Assembly (NCBI GenBank): GCA_030646745.1
Contig: JAUSKV010000122.1
Span: 1 to 5,725, forward strand
Reading direction: 5' to 3'
From: Sulfurimonas sp.
GTDB taxonomy: Bacteria; Campylobacterota; Campylobacteria; Campylobacterales; Sulfurimonadaceae
Length of the DNA: 5,725 bases
Within the stretch, counting starts at the first letter, position 1. Every line of letters begins with the position of its first letter. Below the pieces are notes generated by a model. That model was not told the origin of the DNA and ran no database searches. It saw nothing but the letters and a program-made list of their open reading frames with translations. This document shows, piece by piece, positions 1 through 5,725 of the stretch. Both the position numbers and the translations under genes were made by a program.

Positions 1-7
1 GAGTGAT

Positions 8-914
8 TTAATTTTCGATGACATTTGGTATTTTCCCTGTGAGTGACTGTAAAAAGAATTCTATTTTTTGCACATCTTCTTGAGGTATTTTTATTCCCAT
101 TTGGTACTCTCCCATAAATTGTACACACTTATCCAACTGATCTATACTTCCATCATGTAAATAGGAATGTGTCCAGTTGATGTTTCTAAGAGTAGGAACT
201 CTGAAATATTTTTTGTCTTTTTCCTCTTTTGTGACATTGTATCTGCCAAGCGAATTCCCTTCGTACTCTTTCATAATTCCGAGTTTTTGAAAAAGATTCC
301 CACCGATATTTATGCCATTATGACATGCGATACAGCCATAGGATTTAAAAAGTTCTAAGCCCTGCACTTCAACGTCTCTAAGCGCTTTTTTATCACCTTG
401 CAAATATTCATCGAATCGGGAGAGTGTTACAAGTGCATTTTCAAACTGAGCGATTGCATCTAAAATGTTATCCATCGTGATGCCGTCTTTGTAGAGTTGT
501 TGAAATCTCACACTATAGAAGTTGTTTTTTTTGACGGTTTTAACTACATTTGTCAGTGTATTTCCCATCTCAATGGGATTTGTGAGCGGTCCTGTTGCTT
601 GAGATTTTAAATCATCCGCTCTTCCATCATGAAACTGTGCAAAATGGTATCTTGCATTGAAAGTAGTTGGTGCATTTATAGCACCTTTTTAACCTCGTAT
701 GCCAGTAGATGTTTTGGCTTGATCCACTCCTAGCTCATTCCGTCATGGCAACTCGCACAAGAGATAGTTCCATCGGCAGAGAGTGTTTTATCTGTAAAAA
801 GCATCTTACCAAGTAAAACTTTTTTTGCATCAAAATCTTTTGGGTATTCTAAGGGCGTAAACACCACATTTTCATACGCAAACAAAAGAGCATAAACAAA
901 AATAAAATCCTCAT
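8..914 (-). pseudogene. Di-heme cytochrome c peroxidase (CCP/MauG family), broken by two frameshifts and a stop
   Basis: Intact relatives are periplasmic enzymes that reduce H2O2 with electrons from cytochrome c. The start is ATG at 912-914, with AAGAGG at 920-925. A hydrophobic signal peptide follows (MRILFLFML...). The first heme site CASCH is at 745-759 and the second, CIACH, at 320-334. Other family blocks are NAPTTFNARYHFAQFHDGRA, GITMDNILDAIAQFENAL and FRVPTLRNI..YLHDGS. Three lesions are visible. A base is missing in the T-run at 884-887; restoring it gives a signal peptide running into AYENVVFTP. A base is missing near 730-733, just after the first heme; restoring one T turns AGC-TAG into AGC-TTA and joins CHDGMS to GVDQAK. 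A TAA stands at 689-691 where GQKG or GKKG would be expected. From 688 to the stop at 8 the frame is open. Repaired, it would be about 302 residues, near the usual family length. A fragment starting at the internal ATG 568 would lack the first heme and the signal peptide, so it is unlikely to work. Confidence 0.88.
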
Positions 915-933
915 AGAAGCCTCTTTTTTATCT

Positions 934-941
934 ATTTTATA
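934..941 (-). promoter_or_regulatory. Extended -10 promoter of the cytochrome c peroxidase pseudogene
   Basis: On the minus strand TGC-TATAAAAT (TGC at 942-944, the -10 box at 934-941) lies 19 bases before the ATG at 914, with an AAGAGG ribosome site between. No -35 box is seen at the usual distance; that position falls inside the hairpin repeat at 952-986. Extended -10 boxes without a clear -35 are common in Campylobacterota. Confidence 0.5.
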
Positions 942-951
942 GCAAATAACT

Positions 952-986
952 CTCGAAACGAACGAGTTCGTTTGAGTGCGTAACAT
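952..986. repeat. Imperfect hairpin; left copy of the repeat seen again at 5579-5623
   Basis: AAACGAAC (956-963) and GTTCGTTT (966-973) form a perfect 8-bp stem around GA. It extends by CTC (952-954) pairing with GAG (974-976), with G955 bulged out. The right part continues as GTTTGAGTGCGTAACAT (970-986), identical over 17 bases to 5607-5623. The left part (ACTC, an extra TCG, then AAACGAA) looks like a degraded version of the perfect left arm at 5580-5599. Neither strand has a strong T-run after it, so a terminator role is weak. It lies just upstream of the peroxidase -10 box and downstream of the arsenic operon. Confidence 0.75.
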
Positions 987-987
987 C
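967..987 (+). repeat. 21-bp inverted repeat, left arm flanking the arsenic module
   Basis: These 21 bases are the exact reverse complement of 5579-5599. The match stops at 966 and at 988. The two arms enclose 4,591 bases (988-5578) that contain all seven arsenic/metal genes and nothing else. Confidence 0.85.
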
Positions 988-1092
988 GGTAAGTATAGTA
1001 TTTTTTTTAAAATACTGTGCTAAATTGCGACAGATATTTCAAAAGCATCCCTCAGACTACTCCTCAAATTTATATTCACTCATTTGCATATT
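988..1092. other. Non-coding stretch after the six-gene operon, with an AT-rich stem-loop
   Basis: No gene or tRNA is visible. AGTATTTT (997-1004) and AAAATACT (1009-1016) form an 8-bp stem with a TTTT loop. On the minus strand, where the operon transcript arrives, it is followed by ATACTTACC and not by a U-tract, so termination there is uncertain. A nine-codon minus frame at 1083-1057 (MSEYKFEE, then stop) has no ribosome site and may be debris. Confidence 0.5.
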
Positions 1093-1326
1093 TTAAGCGT
1101 TTATAAAAGCCAAAACTTCATCCACACTCAAAACTCTGCCGCTGCTCACTACTTTGCCATCTATCACTAGTGCGGGAGTGCTAAGAACTTGATACTCCAT
1201 AATTTTCATAATGTCTTCTACTTTGACTATCTGAGCAAACTTTCCGCTCTTAGCAACCGCCTCTTGTACTACTTTTTCTAAGGTTTTGCATTTTGCACAT
1301 CCTGTGCCTAAAACTTCGATTTTCAT
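1093..1326 (-). CDS. Mini-thioredoxin (redox-active disulfide protein 2 type), CAKC
   Basis: A 77-residue cytoplasmic protein with a stripped-down thioredoxin/glutaredoxin fold. The first strand MKIEVLGTG leads into C10-A-K-C13 at the head of the first helix. The cis-proline loop is S49-T50-P51-A52, followed by the strand LVIDGKVVSSGRV and a final helix. This matches the short thioredoxin family known as redox-active disulfide protein 2. The ATG at 1326 is chosen because its ATGA overlaps the stop of the upstream gene and because family members begin MKIEVLG. A GTG at 1335 would add three residues. No strong Shine-Dalgarno site precedes the ATG, so translation is probably coupled. It is the last gene of the operon. 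It could re-reduce ArsC or service the cysteines of its two upstream neighbours; the partner cannot be told from sequence. Confidence 0.88.
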   Translation of the reverse strand: MKIEVLGTGCAKCKTLEKVVQEAVAKSGKFAQIVKVEDIMKIMEYQVLSTPALVIDGKVVSSGRVLSVDEVLAFINA

Positions 1327-1568
1327 AAGAGACACTCACGCATCATAGGTTCTAACTCTTCAGCTTTAACATCCCCGTCTATTGTAATGCTCGCACCGTT
1401 TTCTTCACTGTTTACTTCAATATTTGTAATCTTTTGCATCATCTGCGGGTCACAATTGCAACTACACGCTCCATCTTTACACGCTTCTATTTTTGCACTC
1501 AAATCTTCAGCTTTAAAGCCACCTAAAAACGCCTTTACGCCTTTGTTTGTATTGTTTATCTTAAACAT
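1323..1568 (-). CDS. Small cysteine-rich protein of unknown function
   Basis: I do not recognise this 81-residue protein. It has no signal peptide or membrane segment. Cysteines are C30, C35, C37, C39 and C79, and the core reads CKDGACSCNCDP (C-x4-C-x-C-x-C). Before it is a mixed N-terminal stretch (KGVKAFLGGFKAEDLSAKIEA). After it comes what looks like a strand-turn-strand and a helix (ITNIEVNSEENGASITIDGDVKAEELEPMMREC). The start is well supported: ATG at 1568 with AGGAG at 1575-1579, six bases away, the site overlapping the stop of the permease gene. Its end overlaps the thioredoxin start by four bases. Clustered cysteines in an arsenic/metal operon suggest a soft-metal binder or carrier, or a thiol partner of the CxxC protein; this is inference. 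It resembles neither ArsD nor a classical metallothionein as I know them. Confidence 0.85.
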   Translation of the reverse strand: MFKINNTNKGVKAFLGGFKAEDLSAKIEACKDGACSCNCDPQMMQKITNIEVNSEENGASITIDGDVKAEELEPMMRECLL

Positions 1569-1574
1569 TTTTTT

Positions 1575-1579
1575 CTCCT
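1575..1579 (-). promoter_or_regulatory. Ribosome binding site AGGAG of the cysteine-rich gene, overlapping the permease stop
   Basis: The permease stop TAG (1578-1580) runs directly into AGGAG, six bases before ATG 1568. Termination and re-initiation should be tightly linked, which supports both gene ends. Confidence 0.75.
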
Positions 1580-2537
1580 ATAAAATTAAATTGAAAACAT
1601 ATCCGACAACGAGTATTCCAAAGCCGACAATGCCAAAAAAGAGGGCTATGAGTTTCACATGAAGTATCCGTTTGAGAATCATTGCCTCTGGCAAACTTAG
1701 AGCCGTTACCGCCATCATAAACGAGAGAGCCGTTCCAAGAAGCATCCCTTTGTCGGTGAGAACTTCTACAAGCGGCATCACTCCCGCGGCATTACTGTAC
1801 ATCGGGATTCCCATAATCACGGCGAGAGGCACAGCATACCAAACATCTCCACCTGCGTACTGGGCTATAAAATCAGCCGGAACGAAGCCGTGAATAAACG
1901 CACCGATTCCGACACCCACTATCACATAAAGATAGATTTTTTTGAAAATATCGAGCGTATATTCCCATGCCTCTTTTGCTCTTTGCTCTACACTCAGCTC
2001 AATCTTCACATCTGCAAGTTCGCCCTCCATGGGTGTTACGGGAATAAGCACATACTTCTCTAATCGCATTTTACCTATAACATATCCGCCAAATATCGCG
2101 ACAAAGAGACCAAAACCAATGTAGAGAGCCGTAATCTTCCACCCAAAAAGCCCAAAAAGCATGGCAATCGCAATCTCATTGTTGAGTGGGGCAGAGATGA
2201 GAAAACTAAAAGTGATGCCCATCGGAATTCTCGCTTGCATAAATCCAAGAAAGAGGGGAATCGCAGAACATGAACAAAATGGAGTGATAATTCCAAAAAA
2301 TGCCGCCAAAACATTGCCTGTAAATTCACTTTTTCTCTGTAAATAAACTCTTACTTTTTCAGTATTAAAATAAGTTCTCAAAAAACTGACTAGAAAAATA
2401 ATCGCTATCAAAAGCATAAATATTTTCAGAGTATCATAGAGAAAAAAGTGCAGAGCCTCACCTAGATGTGTTTGCGGTACAAACCCTAAAATATCAAAAA
2501 TCAACATGCCGCTAAGGCTTTGCCACCAATCAAACAT
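1578..2537 (-). CDS. ArsP/YraQ-type permease (DUF318, PF03773) with CSC motif
   Basis: A 319-residue inner-membrane protein with about eight hydrophobic segments (roughly 33-53, 74-99, 104-127, 135-155, 201-219, 234-257, 265-288, 295-318) and a polar loop at 157-200. The first half carries TPFC88SC90SAIPLFLGF and SAP117LNNE. The second half repeats the plan with GIPMY247SNAAGVMPL and SLP283E, without cysteines, consistent with the internal duplication in this family. The best-known relative, ArsP of Campylobacter jejuni, exports trivalent organoarsenicals; other members have been linked to other metals, so the substrate is open. An arsenic operon favours As(III) or methyl-As(III). The start is ATG 2537, with AGGAG at 2545-2549. 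The CDF gene overlaps it by eight bases. Two blocks counted by eye in this gene (1681-1800) are about 52% GC, above blocks elsewhere in the window (30-37%). Confidence 0.88.
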   Translation of the reverse strand: MFDWWQSLSGMLIFDILGFVPQTHLGEALHFFLYDTLKIFMLLIAIIFLVSFLRTYFNTEKVRVYLQRKSEFTGNVLAAFFGIITPFCSCSAIPLFLGFMQARIPMGITFSFLISAPLNNEIAIAMLFGLFGWKITALYIGFGLFVAIFGGYVIGKMRLEKYVLIPVTPMEGELADVKIELSVEQRAKEAWEYTLDIFKKIYLYVIVGVGIGAFIHGFVPADFIAQYAGGDVWYAVPLAVIMGIPMYSNAAGVMPLVEVLTDKGMLLGTALSFMMAVTALSLPEAMILKRILHVKLIALFFGIVGFGILVVGYVFNLIL

Positions 2538-3450
2538 GACAACACTCCTGTTTCACCAAATCTTTATTATCCTCTCTTTCAAATTCGTTTTGGAATGTAG
2601 CATGTGTGATGCCAAAATGTGTATGCAGCTCTTCTTGGAGCGTTTCGACTATTTTTGTGCTTTGACTCAGTGCTAAATCCTCTTTAAAATCGAGATGTGC
2701 TTCGAGCATTATCTCTTTGTCGCTCAGTTTCCAAATGTGGACATGGTGGATATTTTTTATACTTTCACATGCCAAGATAATTTTTTCCACTTCACTCAGT
2801 TCTATCTCTTTTGGAGTGAATTGCATAAGAACCGAAACAGAGTCATACACCAAAGAGTAGGCACTTTTGATAATATAAACAGCGATAAAAATCGTGATAA
2901 GACTATCTATCCAAAAGAGCTCATAGAGCATCATCGCCACACCGCCTACAAGTACAGCAACAGAGGTCATCACATCTGTAAAAAGGTGCAGATAGACCGC
3001 TTTTACATTCATATTGTCATACGAATCTTCTTTGATAAGAAACATAGAGAGAGCGTTAAACACAATACCTAAAATCGCCAAATAGATGACAATATTGGAT
3101 GCTATCGGCTGAGGATGTTGCACTCTCTCAATACTCTCAAATATCAGATAAATTCCTATCCCAACGAGAGAAGAAGCGTTAAAAAGTGTCGCCAAAATTT
3201 CGGCTCGTCTGTAACCAAAAGTTTTAACATCGCTGTTTTTTCTCCCTGAGAGCTTATTTGCCCACCAAGCAACTATAAGGGTAATCACATCACTAAAATT
3301 GTGAAGTGCATCACTCAAAAGAGCTAAGGAACCGGAAAATATTCCACCCACTACCTGTGCAAGGGTGATAAGAAGATTTAATAGAATCGTAATTAAAAAG
3401 TTTTTACCTTGAACTTCATGTGTGTGATTATGTCCGTGACTATGCTCCAC
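2530..3450 (-). CDS. CDF-family zinc/cadmium-type cation efflux protein
   Basis: A 306-residue cation diffusion facilitator, an inner-membrane divalent-cation/H+ antiporter. It has a His-rich N-terminus (EHSHGHNHTHE) and six membrane segments (about 18-38, 42-64, 86-106, 119-139, 151-175, 181-200). A cytosolic C-terminal domain begins near 210, with HHVHIW (H235, H236, H238) and GITHATFQ. Site residues are H50/D54 in segment 2 (LSDALHNFSD) and H155/D159 in segment 5 (HLFTD), the HxxxD pair pattern of Zn/Cd exporters such as ZitB and CzcD. The protein ends in C303-C304-H305-V. The start is GTG 3450, preceded by GAAGG and eight A residues; no closer ATG keeps the His tract. It lies 12 bases after arsC and overlaps the permease by eight bases. 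A CDF exporter is not part of a canonical ars operon; it may give joint resistance to arsenic and Zn/Cd. Confidence 0.93.
   Translation of the reverse strand: MEHSHGHNHTHEVQGKNFLITILLNLLITLAQVVGGIFSGSLALLSDALHNFSDVITLIVAWWANKLSGRKNSDVKTFGYRRAEILATLFNASSLVGIGIYLIFESIERVQHPQPIASNIVIYLAILGIVFNALSMFLIKEDSYDNMNVKAVYLHLFTDVMTSVAVLVGGVAMMLYELFWIDSLITIFIAVYIIKSAYSLVYDSVSVLMQFTPKEIELSEVEKIILACESIKNIHHVHIWKLSDKEIMLEAHLDFKEDLALSQSTKIVETLQEELHTHFGITHATFQNEFEREDNKDLVKQECCHV
2545..2549 (-). promoter_or_regulatory. Ribosome binding site AGGAG of the permease, inside the CDF coding end
   Basis: AGGAG lies seven bases before ATG 2537. In the CDF frame the same bases encode the Q-E of the terminal QECCHV, so the CDF tail and the permease initiation signal are written in one stretch. 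Confidence 0.75.
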
Positions 3451-3462
3451 TTTTTTTTCCTT

Positions 3463-3867
3463 CTAACACAACTCTTTTTTCACAATTGGCAAAAGCTCTG
3501 CTTCTATCAAATCAAGCGTTTTTTCATACTCATTCACCTCTTTGCCGCTCGGGTCATCAAACCCCATGTGAATAGTTTTTATCGCCTTTGGAAACATCGG
3601 ACATGTCTCTTTTGCATGGTCACACACGGTGATAACCAAATCAAACGGCGTGTCCAAAACAGTCTCAATCACTTTGGAATGGTACGAATCTCTCCAGTAC
3701 CCTTTACTCTGTAAAAGTTCTTTAGCATGTGGATTTACTGCACCGCTCGCTTTAACACCCGAACTCTGAGCAGTGACGCAATCGCCCATTTTTGCATTGA
3801 TAAGTGCTTCAGCCATAATCGAACGGCAACTATTTCCCGTACATAAAATCAGTACATTCTTTTTCAT
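3463..3867 (-). CDS. arsC: Arsenate reductase ArsC, thioredoxin-coupled (LMW phosphatase fold)
   Basis: Reduces arsenate to arsenite in the cytoplasm. With the ATG at 3867 the protein has 134 residues. The P-loop C9-T-G-N-S-C14-R15 (CX5R) holds the nucleophile. The relay cysteines are C82 and C89 (VC82DHAKETC89P), and the acid/base loop is GFDD105PSGKE. The numbering and motifs coincide with Staphylococcus aureus pI258 ArsC (Cys10, Cys82, Cys89, Asp105), which is recharged by thioredoxin; this is not the unrelated glutaredoxin-type E. coli ArsC. A GTG at 3876 is in frame, but only one base separates it from AGGAG (3878-3882). ATG 3867 lies ten bases from that site and forms an ATGA overlap with the arsR stop. 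The mini-thioredoxin at the end of the operon is a possible electron donor, although a general thioredoxin is the expected one. Confidence 0.95.
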   Translation of the reverse strand: MKKNVLILCTGNSCRSIMAEALINAKMGDCVTAQSSGVKASGAVNPHAKELLQSKGYWRDSYHSKVIETVLDTPFDLVITVCDHAKETCPMFPKAIKTIHMGFDDPSGKEVNEYEKTLDLIEAELLPIVKKELC

Positions 3868-4187
3868 ATTTGACACTCTCCTGTTTGTGATGGTTTTTTT
3901 AATTTTGGAAGTTCGATATTTAAGTATTTTATCTCTTGCAACGCTTCAGTTCTAAATCTGTCTAAGGGGCTACGCAGTGCATAATACGCCCAAGTTCCTC
4001 TTCGCTCCACCCGTAAAAATCCGGCATCTTTGAGAATTTTAAGATGGCGGGAGAGACGCGACTGAATCATCTCTAAAGAGCTTTGCAAATCACACACGCA
4101 TGTCTCTCCGTTTTCCTCAAGAAAACGAAGTATCAAAACTCTTGTTTCATCATTGAGTGCTGCAACGCTTTTTAAAAATATTTCCAT
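3864..4187 (-). CDS. arsR: ArsR arsenite-responsive repressor
   Basis: An ArsR/SmtB-family winged-helix repressor that binds DNA as a dimer and leaves it on binding As(III)/Sb(III). The 107 residues begin MEIFLKSVAALNDETR. The metal motif is ETC30VC32DL at the start of the DNA-binding helix region. The recognition helix is about QSRLSRHLKILKDAG (42-56), and the wing is RVERRGTWAYYAL. E. coli R773 ArsR has a third cysteine five residues after the first (CVCDLC); here it is Gln35, and the only other cysteine is C105 near the end. The ATG at 4187 is chosen over an upstream in-frame TTG at 4211 because GGAG (4194-4197) is six bases before it, and because the TTG would lie only a few bases from the -10 box. 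First gene of the operon; it overlaps arsC by four bases. Confidence 0.94.
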   Translation of the reverse strand: MEIFLKSVAALNDETRVLILRFLEENGETCVCDLQSSLEMIQSRLSRHLKILKDAGFLRVERRGTWAYYALRSPLDRFRTEALQEIKYLNIELPKLKKPSQTGECQI

Positions 4188-4193
4188 GCCCTG

Positions 4194-4197
4194 CTCC
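4194..4197 (-). promoter_or_regulatory. Ribosome binding site GGAG that sets the arsR start at 4187
   Basis: GGAG followed by CAGGGC and ATG gives a six-base spacer. No comparable site precedes the TTG at 4211. Confidence 0.7.
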
Positions 4198-4212
4198 GTT
4201 TGGATTTTCAAA

Positions 4213-4241
4213 ATTGTAGCAGATTAAAATCGTTAAATCAA
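4213..4241 (-). promoter_or_regulatory. arsR operon promoter
   Basis: On the minus strand, TTGATT (4236-4241) is followed by 17 bases and then TACAAT (4213-4218). TGC lies directly before the -10 box, making it an extended -10. The predicted RNA start is near 4205, leaving a short leader before ATG 4187. The -35 box is the left half of the dyad at 4237-4252. Confidence 0.7.
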
Positions 4242-4252
4242 GATATGTTGAT
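4237..4252. promoter_or_regulatory. Candidate ArsR operator, dyad ATCAA-N6-TTGAT
   Basis: ATCAA (4237-4241) and TTGAT (4248-4252) are perfect inverted halves around GATATG. The halves coincide with the -35 boxes of the two facing promoters, so one bound ArsR dimer could block both. AT-rich imperfect dyads at the promoter are usual for ArsR/SmtB repressors. Two facing TTGA-type -35 boxes would create such a dyad by themselves, so operator function is inference. Confidence 0.6.
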
Positions 4253-4275
4253 ATTTAGATTAATTTTGCTATAGT
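4248..4275 (+). promoter_or_regulatory. arsB promoter
   Basis: TTGATA (4248-4253), a 16-base spacer and TATAGT (4270-4275), with TGC just before the -10 box (extended -10). A T-rich run follows at 4279-4285. The predicted RNA start is near 4282, about 24 bases before the arsB ATG. The -35 box overlaps the right half of the dyad. Confidence 0.7.
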
Positions 4276-4295
4276 TTCTTTTTTTAAATACAAAT

Positions 4296-4300
4296 GGAGG
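4296..4300 (+). promoter_or_regulatory. Ribosome binding site GGAGG that sets the arsB start at 4306
   Basis: GGAGG lies five bases before ATG 4306. An upstream in-frame ATG at 4294 overlaps the GGAGG itself and has no site of its own, so the longer form (four extra residues, MEDE) is unlikely. Confidence 0.8.
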
Positions 4301-4305
4301 ATGAA

Positions 4306-5568
4306 ATGACACTTGCCATGTTAGTTTTTTTGGTTACTTTAGTTTTTGTGATTTGGCAGCCGCGAGGTTTGCAAATCGGTACAACAGCGGTGGTTGGAGC
4401 AGTTATTGCACTTATGGTTGGCGTAGTAAACTTGCATGATGTACAAGCCGTTATCGCCATCGTTTGGGATGCTACTCTGGCTTTTATCGGGATTATCATT
4501 CTCTCCATGATACTCGATGAGATAGGATTTTTTGAATACGCAGCCATCAAAATGGCAAAACTTAGCGGTGGGAACGGGCATAAAATGTTTGTTTATATCC
4601 TGCTTTTGGGTGCAGTTGTCTCTGCTTTTTTTGCCAACGATGGTGCGGCACTTATCCTCACACCGATTTTACTTGCCAAGATGAAATACCTTAAAATGAA
4701 ACCCCTGCCAATTTTCGCTTTTTTGATGGCGGGCGGTTTTATAGGCGATAGTGCTTCAAGCCCTCTTGTCATCTCAAACCTCACAAATATAGTGACAGCC
4801 GGGTATTTTCATATCGGATTTGTAGAGTACGCCAAAAATATGTTTTTGCCGAACTTGCTTAGCATAATCGCTTCCATCGCTGTTTTGTGGATTTATTTTC
4901 GCAAAGATATTCCCTTTGTCATCGATGTTTCCAAACTCCCTGAGGCGCACACCGTTATCAAAAATCAAACCATGTTCAAATTCTCTTGGTTCTTTTTGGC
5001 ACTTTTGATGGGTGGATATTTTATAGGCGATTACTACCACTTACCGGTGAGTATCTTCGCTCTGGGTGGGGCTTTGCTGTTTTTGGCAATTGCAACGCAC
5101 TACAAAGCTGTCAAACCAATCATGACTATCAAAGCCGCTCCATGGCAAGTAGTCTGGTTTAGCATCGGGCTTTATGTGGTTGTGTATGGGCTGAAAAATG
5201 CGGGTTTAACAGATGTGATTGCTTCGTGGATTCGTGAATTAAATACTCATTCTGATGCTATCGCTATCATCGGAACCGGATTTTTATCGGCATTTATAAG
5301 CTCTGTGATGAACAACATGCCAACGATTATGATTATGGACATCGCTATAGAACAAGTGGGCTTCGTGGGAAATGAAGCGCTTGTCTATGCAAACATCTTA
5401 GGCTCAAATCTCGGACCAAAAATGACACCTATCGGCTCATTGGCAACGCTGTTATGGCTCCATGTGTTGGCACAAAAAGGGGTAAAAATCAGCTGGGCGG
5501 AATACATGAAAGTGGGGCTTGTTATCACACCGCCCGTGCTTTTAGCGGCACTTCTTGGTTTAATATAA
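4306..5568 (+). CDS. arsB: Arsenite/antimonite exporter ArsB
   Basis: An inner-membrane As(III)/Sb(III) exporter of the E. coli ArsB type (not Acr3), working as a proton antiporter when no ArsA ATPase is present; none is encoded here. It has 420 residues against 429 in E. coli, hydrophobic throughout. Conserved blocks are VIWQPRGL near the start, SAFFANDGAALILTPI, SNLTNIV, IYFRKDIP, APWQVVWFSIGLYVVVYGLKNAGL, SSVMNNMPTIMI and YANILGSNLGPKMTPIGSLATLLWLHVLAQKG. The protein contains no cysteine at all; the single cysteine of E. coli ArsB (in VIGCDLGPK) is Ser here, in agreement with reports that this cysteine is dispensable. The start at 4306 is set by GGAGG. It is transcribed alone, divergently from arsR, under the shared control region, and ends at a strong stem-loop. 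Confidence 0.96.
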   Translation: MTLAMLVFLVTLVFVIWQPRGLQIGTTAVVGAVIALMVGVVNLHDVQAVIAIVWDATLAFIGIIILSMILDEIGFFEYAAIKMAKLSGGNGHKMFVYILLLGAVVSAFFANDGAALILTPILLAKMKYLKMKPLPIFAFLMAGGFIGDSASSPLVISNLTNIVTAGYFHIGFVEYAKNMFLPNLLSIIASIAVLWIYFRKDIPFVIDVSKLPEAHTVIKNQTMFKFSWFFLALLMGGYFIGDYYHLPVSIFALGGALLFLAIATHYKAVKPIMTIKAAPWQVVWFSIGLYVVVYGLKNAGLTDVIASWIRELNTHSDAIAIIGTGFLSAFISSVMNNMPTIMIMDIAIEQVGFVGNEALVYANILGSNLGPKMTPIGSLATLLWLHVLAQKGVKISWAEYMKVGLVITPPVLLAALLGLI

Positions 5569-5578
5569 CCCTTTAACG

Positions 5579-5599
5579 GATGTTACGCACTCAAACGAA
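5579..5599 (-). repeat. 21-bp inverted repeat, right arm flanking the arsenic module
   Basis: Exact reverse complement of 967-987. It also forms the left arm of the stem-loop at 5580-5623. A third partial copy, 17 bases in the same direction as the left-flank copy, is at 5607-5623 (GTTTGAGTGCGTAACAT). Confidence 0.85.
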
Positions 5600-5627
5600 A
5601 AAGTCTGTTTGAGTGCGTAACATTTTT
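5580..5627 (+). terminator. Strong stem-loop terminator after arsB
   Basis: A perfect 17-bp stem (5580-5596 with 5607-5623) has a 10-base loop and is followed by T residues at 5623-5627, eleven bases after the arsB stop. It is a good intrinsic terminator for the plus strand. For the convergent b561-type gene it begins within three bases of the stop, but the minus-strand side has no T-run beyond it, so termination there is less certain. Confidence 0.8.
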
Positions 5628-5725
5628 AATGATGCTCTTTATCCCCGTGTATCATAGTCGATACTAAACCCTTTTCATCTCTGTTTTCTGCGATAATTAC
5701 CCCGGCGATGTGAATTGGTACAAAA
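5626..5725 (-). CDS. Cytochrome b561-type membrane cytochrome, C-terminal fragment (gene continues past the window)
   Basis: The last 32 residues of a minus-strand gene whose 5' part lies beyond 5725. It reads FVPIHIAGVIIAENRDEKGL, then VSTMIHGDKEHH and a TAA at 5626-5628. A membrane-helix end with H-x-x-G-V followed by E-x-R-x-E-x-G-L-V-S-x-M-I is the typical C-terminus of bacterial cytochrome b561 and related b-type cytochrome subunits. There the His in this last helix is a heme ligand, and the protein passes electrons within the inner membrane. The ending KEHH is unusually His-rich but short. The call rests on a short stretch. The gene converges on arsB. Confidence 0.7.
   Translation of the reverse strand, partial: FVPIHIAGVIIAENRDEKGLVSTMIHGDKEHH

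Follow-up and report, generated by a model that had tools for sequence, protein, structure and literature searches.

The window analysed here, a stretch of 5,725 nucleotides from Sulfurimonas sp. (assembly GCA_030646745.1, contig JAUSKV010000122.1, positions 1 to 5,725), was identified by reading frames and profile searches as a Campylobacterota ars locus, with arsR-arsC-CDF-permease-small gene-trx on the minus strand and arsB divergent. ArsR, ArsC and ArsB are encoded in one cluster, so the locus qualifies as an ars operon. The subject of this report is its small gene (1323..1568, minus strand), which encodes a protein of 81 residues that we call the thiol domain protein. The ArsR/SmtB regulator (3864..4211, minus strand; NF033788, 83.6 bits against a cut-off of 55) possesses a CVCDLQ site. 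ArsC (3463..3876, minus strand) is of the low-molecular-weight-phosphatase type (PF01451, 73.1 bits against 23.2) and features a C12-x4-C17-R18 loop together with C85/C92; the NCBIfam ArsC models stay below their cut-offs, the best being NF010053 at 97 bits against 215. It is followed by a CDF cation efflux transporter (2530..3450, minus strand; TIGR01297, 256.3 bits, and PF01545), an ArsP_1/DUF318 permease of 319 residues (1578..2537, minus strand; PF03773, 241.6 bits against 32.3), the small gene and a mini-thioredoxin of the MTH895/ArsE family (1093..1326, minus strand; 77 residues, C10-x-x-C13; TIGR00412, 108.6 bits against 62, and PF13192, 2e-27), whose start is taken as the ATG at 1326, the reading-frame listing having a GTG start at 1335. 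The ArsB arsenite efflux pump is encoded at 4294..5568 on the plus strand (NF011980, 613.2 bits against 457). The small gene begins 9 nt after the last base of the permease gene, with GGAG upstream of its start, and its end overlaps the start of the trx gene by 4 nt (ATGA). A preliminary description of this DNA had pointed to such touching or overlapping ends and to close cysteine motifs in the three adjacent genes; both observations are confirmed (C88/C90 in the permease, C30/C35/C37/C39 in the small protein, C10/C13 in the thioredoxin), and a further cysteine of the small protein, C79, had been missed.

The 81-residue protein belongs to what we term subfamily A. Its five cysteines are those of a C30-x4-C35-x-C37-x-C39 loop and C79, and it is built of two strand-strand-helix repeats, residues 1-31 and 49-80 repeating one unit; a half-profile alignment of the two scored 35.0 (E 5.7e-9), against at most 16.5 in 100 column shuffles. 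The helices of the two repeats carry C30 and C79 at corresponding ends; the segment joining the halves contains the C-x-C loop. A predicted model (predicted local distance difference test, pLDDT, 87.2; predicted template modelling score, pTM, 0.72) agrees with this architecture, having strands at 2-7 and 10-16, helices at 20-31 and 41-46, strands at 47-55 and 58-65 and a last helix at 69-80. Structure searches returned only middling, mixed matches. The preliminary description could not assign the protein to any family, and the searches bear this out: no significant match was found in Pfam, NCBIfam or PDB sequences, the sole hits being PEGA (E 0.13, under the cut-off) and one PDB chain (E 1.8), with none in NCBIfam. 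Among 85 aligned relatives no family match exceeded a known cut-off, and only weak BON and DUF hits appeared; the BON domain (PF04972) is weakly matched by 6 of the 86 members (best E 0.0019) and not by the window protein, and reaches 17.2 bits against a cut-off of 27 in the relative designated L021. PF06953 (ArsD) was matched neither by the window protein at E<=1 nor by any of the 86 members at E<=0.01. The vicinal cysteine pair plus third cysteine typical of ArsD is absent, all 193 homologues examined having C-x-x-G-x-C-x-C. The window protein has no CxxC and matches no thioredoxin model at E<=1, as tested for thioredoxin and glutaredoxin, and neither it nor the 86 members matches the HMA metal chaperone domain; the UniRef name of one relative (P0123), which has no listed Pfam domain, begins 'HMA domain-containing p'. 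The 81-residue protein founds a domain family to which Pfam, NCBIfam and the PDB sequences offer no significant match.

Searching 5.8 billion clustered proteins yielded 45 relatives of the window protein, all of which carry C-x-x-G-x-C-x-C-x-C and a cysteine in the last helix. A profile built from 27 of them and the window protein (A1) was searched against 397 Campylobacterota genomes and found a second, divergent set, subfamily B. The profile made from this set and the L021 relative (A3) matched 1152 clustered proteins at E<=0.001; the 120 of these that were listed and checked are nearly all named 'hypothetical protein', and every one of them has C-x-x-G-x-C-x-C-M, as do 27 of 28 proteins retrieved with the domain part of one ArsC fusion. 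In an 86-row alignment chosen from these sets, C30, G33, C35, C37, G10 and G65 form an invariant core. The profiles of the two subfamilies are related (hhalign probability 98.4, E 5e-15), and a tree of 20 subfamily-A sequences, 31 subfamily-B sequences and one Alicyclobacillus domain, computed from 89 columns, places subfamily A on one side of a branch (96/93) and subfamily B on another (99/98). The L021 relative (L021:8721-8993) is a third, intermediate form with C-x5-C-x-C-x-C; its gene adjoins those of a zf_CopZ protein, an ABC ATPase and a SufBD-core protein, about 2 kb past ars genes on the same contig.

The genomic setting of the family is mostly that of arsenic resistance. Two peptide patterns scanned over 84,980 species genomes located 34 subfamily-A loci, after subtraction of an excerpt of the window itself (L001, the 35th row), and all their titles are of Campylobacterota lineages; within 3 kb of the gene, ArsC is present in 32, ArsR in 29, the permease in 28, the mini-thioredoxin in 28 and ArsB in 22. 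The two profiles match 40 and 46 of the 397 Campylobacterota genomes, 49 jointly, at 52 places (20 of subfamily A and 32 of subfamily B). ArsC, at a threshold (E<=1e-10) that may take in other small phosphatases, is found in 162 of the 397 genomes and in all 49 with the domain; the hypergeometric value for this co-occurrence, 5.5e-22, assumes that genomes are independent of one another, an assumption that does not hold. At 45 of the 52 places the domain is fused to ArsC or has arsR, arsC or arsB in the fetched stretch. These genes were sought with the window's own proteins only, within fetched stretches some 3 to 12 kb long, a search that could miss Acr3, ArsM or distant genes; two places (L067 and L142) are linked to arsenic solely via their fused ArsC, two rows of genome G313 were merged into a single broken ArsC fusion (L143), and one match (G332:C28, E 3.4e-6) was dropped before the counts, no frame having matched in L145. 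In three genomes of one genus (L138:3549-3848, L139:3956-4255 and L140:3574-3831) the subfamily-B gene lies away from ars genes and is followed in each of them by the same gene, encoding 439 residues; the preceding genes of L139 and L140 resemble each other, and that of L138 differs. A search of 72,556 plasmid records was not aimed at arsenic and is therefore an independent check of the link. The window protein (E 3e-6) and a subfamily-B protein (E 5e-8) each match one record there and the same gene, which encodes an 86-residue 'hypothetical protein' on plasmid p1 of Alicyclobacillus sp. SO9, with cysteines in a C-STGS-C-S-C-C arrangement, one more near the C-terminus and one near the N-terminus. 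The gene stands directly after trxB in an ars cluster annotated with arsD, two ArsA-family ATPases, two other genes, ArsR, an arsenic transporter, two arsenate reductases and trxB.

The closest tie is to ArsC. All 20 subfamily-A stretches contain ArsC; the 32 subfamily-B places comprise 12 intact fusions to the C-terminus of ArsC, 1 broken fusion, 12 separate genes accompanied by an ars gene (8 of them with ArsC in the stretch) and 7 with none, and the gene directly precedes arsB at 6 of the 19 separate places. Of the 28 proteins retrieved with the fusion domain, 27 carry PF01451, 27 have CTGNSCR and 25 have C-x6-C. The 12 intact fused ArsCs all keep CTGNSCR and C-x6-C; the domain is thus no substitute for their catalytic or resolving cysteines. 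A BFD [2Fe-2S] domain lies between ArsC and the thiol domain in 2 of these 12; in two other proteins of 168 and 171 residues (P0161, with Pfam BFD listed, and P0105, by sequence likeness) a BFD-like [2Fe-2S] domain is joined directly to the thiol domain without ArsC.

Such fusions admit a redox role, in which electrons from the mini-thioredoxin or a BFD [2Fe-2S] domain would reach ArsC through the cysteines of the thiol domain to regenerate the ArsC disulfide, the fusion being a built-in reductant. This electron relay is the main rival of the arsenite acceptor proposed below, and what keeps it alive, besides the fusion to ArsC itself, are the BFD domains inserted between the two parts in L078, L083 and P0192 and the neighbouring redox genes, the mini-thioredoxin being present in 18 of the 20 subfamily-A stretches. 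We nevertheless regard the relay as unlikely. The domain lacks a CxxC, no thioredoxin model matches at E<=0.01 among the 86 members, and its invariant cysteines are three, not two; moreover, in 10 of the 12 intact fusions no BFD domain separates the two parts, none of the 13 fusions has a mini-thioredoxin in its fetched stretch, and subfamily-B genes precede ArsB without ArsC in the fetched stretch at L077, L080 and L082.

Because the genes are mostly in ars clusters and some are fused to ArsC, the 81-residue protein likely catches the arsenite that ArsC makes and would pass it to pumps. We propose that the thiol domain acts as a three-thiolate As(III) acceptor, which would receive arsenite from ArsC and deliver it to an efflux pump, a proposal whose chances we judge to be even; both the binding and the hand-over are what we infer from the conserved thiols and the gene context. 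Trigonal As-S3 sites are present in ArsD and ArsR, and C30, C35 and C37 may form a site of this kind. Fusion or co-translation would keep the acceptor site beside ArsC, and fresh As(III) would therefore be caught before it meets other thiols and then be delivered to the pump. For subfamily A, whose members have C39 and C79 in addition, these two cysteines could provide a second grip matching the CxC of the co-encoded permease, which might be a second exit besides ArsB, and the mini-thioredoxin may keep these thiols, or ArsC, reduced. The fullest form of this proposal, an undescribed arsenite chaperone domain plugged into ArsC, with As(III) channelled from its reduction to ArsB or the CxC permease and never free in the cell, is put forward tentatively, as possible rather than probable. 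A third explanation is that the domain only sequesters arsenite, soaking it up with its thiols and delivering it to no particular partner. A buffer of this kind would suit a small soluble protein that is encoded in ars clusters and has three to five conserved thiols; however, one site per 81 residues would be a poor capacity, and the ArsC fusion and the gene overlap with ArsB suggest placed, stoichiometric partners, not bulk storage, which makes the buffer improbable.

Several observations weigh against the acceptor proposal. In seven of the 52 places the fetched stretch is devoid of ars genes (one of these places is at a contig start), and 113 of the 162 ArsC-bearing genomes are without the domain, so that ArsC does not need it. 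C-x-x-G-x-C-x-C is missing from the frame of the broken fusion in L143, the predicted model has some of its lowest confidence in the cysteine loop (mean pLDDT 72 for residues 31-40), and the BFD [2Fe-2S] fusions would be compatible with electron transfer as well. Since genes for ArsD and two ArsA-family ATPases are present in the Alicyclobacillus cluster too, the domain is not simply an ArsD replacement.

The permease and mini-thioredoxin are partners of subfamily A. C88 and C90 are the only cysteines of the window permease, and among the 34 distinct permeases of the loci, counting that of the window, every one has a CxC (28 CSC and 6 CTC) and no further cysteine. The permease passes the cut-off of ArsP_1 (PF03773) and falls short of the SaoE and SO_0444 permease equivalogs of NCBIfam (105.3 of 325 and 96.7 of 300 bits); the mini-thioredoxin, with C10-A-K-C13, passes that of the MTH895/ArsE thioredoxin-like family (TIGR00412). 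Both genes are present in 18 of the 20 subfamily-A stretches and neither in the other 2. In subfamily B none of the 32 fetched stretches contains the mini-thioredoxin and only 2 have the permease, each as a weak match; the general partner is therefore ArsC, often with ArsB. The preliminary description had taken permease, small protein and thioredoxin for an undescribed functional triad that might also occur outside ars operons. As a general unit the triad does not hold up: among the 52 places it is seen only in 18 of the 20 subfamily-A stretches, and none of the 7 places whose fetched stretch lacks an ars gene has a permease or thioredoxin there. The small protein itself fared better: its cysteine motif is conserved throughout the homologues, its neighbours are not random, and its suggested part as an As(III) holder is still the best reading of the sequence data, tied to arsenic genes, although the permease is not its general partner. 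'Undescribed' applies to the small protein; ArsP_1 permeases and MTH895/ArsE-type mini-thioredoxins are known ars accessory genes, as the relevant text of PMC2963123 indicates, and neighbouring redox genes are proposed there as electron suppliers of ArsC. Relatives of the operon contain further genes: a DsbD/CcdA-like membrane protein and a thioredoxin-like protein (L013:4547-5641), a rhodanese (L014:7575-7976), and DUF4395 and sulfur-transport proteins (L003:6357-7076 and 7824-8342).

The window operon also holds a CDF gene, between arsC and the permease gene, and CDFs occur in clusters L002, L102, L103 and L104. Together with the ArsP_1 permease, and with the zf_CopZ gene beside the L021 relative, it would fit a reading in which the domain carries a different soft ion (Cu(I), Zn(II) or Sb(III)), or else an arsenical in thiolated or methylated form, and probably serves the CxC permease, the CDF being a related component. 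A CDF lies within 3 kb in only 6 of the 34 loci, the permease is scarce in subfamily B, and the fusion partner is an arsenate reductase, all of which render this explanation improbable. Downstream of the cluster, a di-haem cytochrome c peroxidase (CCP_MauG) gene (8-885, minus strand) is in two separate frame pieces, 8-568 and 730-885, and so appears to be broken here or to contain sequencing errors. A repeat element flanks the ars cluster on both sides (956-990, a single copy, and 5576-5640, with a hairpin at 5580-5623 whose perfect arms of 17 nt are 10 nt apart). Its core, TTTGAGTGCGTAACAT, occurs at 33 places in the genome of origin (at most 1 mismatch, the window's three counted) against 0 for the reversed control; it may be a dispersed repeat or a terminator, a putative role in either case.

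Several known systems resemble parts of this one. The window permease (ArsP_1) and the mini-thioredoxin, placed by NCBI in the MTH895/ArsE family, recall the ArsP/ArsG permeases and the ArsEFG system of roxarsone resistance; ArsEFG is mentioned in a passage of PMC9144182, and the likeness of the window genes considered here is that of the ArsE family and the ArsP_1 permease. The CcdA, thioredoxin and redox-active disulfide protein 2 genes described as ars accessory genes in PMC2963123 have counterparts in L013 (and, by look, L015), which add DsbD/CcdA-like and thioredoxin genes, whereas the 81-residue family does not appear in the relevant text of that paper. Neither the family nor its fusion to ArsC was found in print among open-licence papers. 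The plan of CopZ combines an Fe-S domain with a metal chaperone. CopZ-type chaperones with a BFD/zinc [2Fe-2S] domain are matched by the BFD fusions and the zf_CopZ neighbour, but the thiol domain has neither an HMA match nor a CxxC, and its partner is ArsC.

The nearest parallel is ArsD (PF06953), likewise a small protein of ars operons with three thiols; the role proposed for the thiol domain, passing As(III) on to a pump, would be comparable. ArsD has a thioredoxin-like fold. The thiol domain differs from it in having no PF06953 match, C-x4-C-x-C instead of vicinal cysteines, a predicted duplicated strand-strand-helix architecture and, in some species, a fusion to ArsC. ArsD is found in 5 of the 397 Campylobacterota genomes and in none of the 49 with the thiol domain, and the two co-occur in the Alicyclobacillus cluster. 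How As(III) travels from arsenate reductase to pump without poisoning thiols is a question wherever ArsD is absent, that is, in nearly all Campylobacterota examined. A family of more than 1000 clustered proteins (1152 at E<=1e-3) is now defined, and with members fused to ArsC the channelling of substrate can be tested directly within a single polypeptide. The thiol domain may work like ArsD without being a member of its family, and judged by sequence the family is a putative arsenic thiol carrier, unrelated in sequence to ArsD, with ArsC as a new partner.
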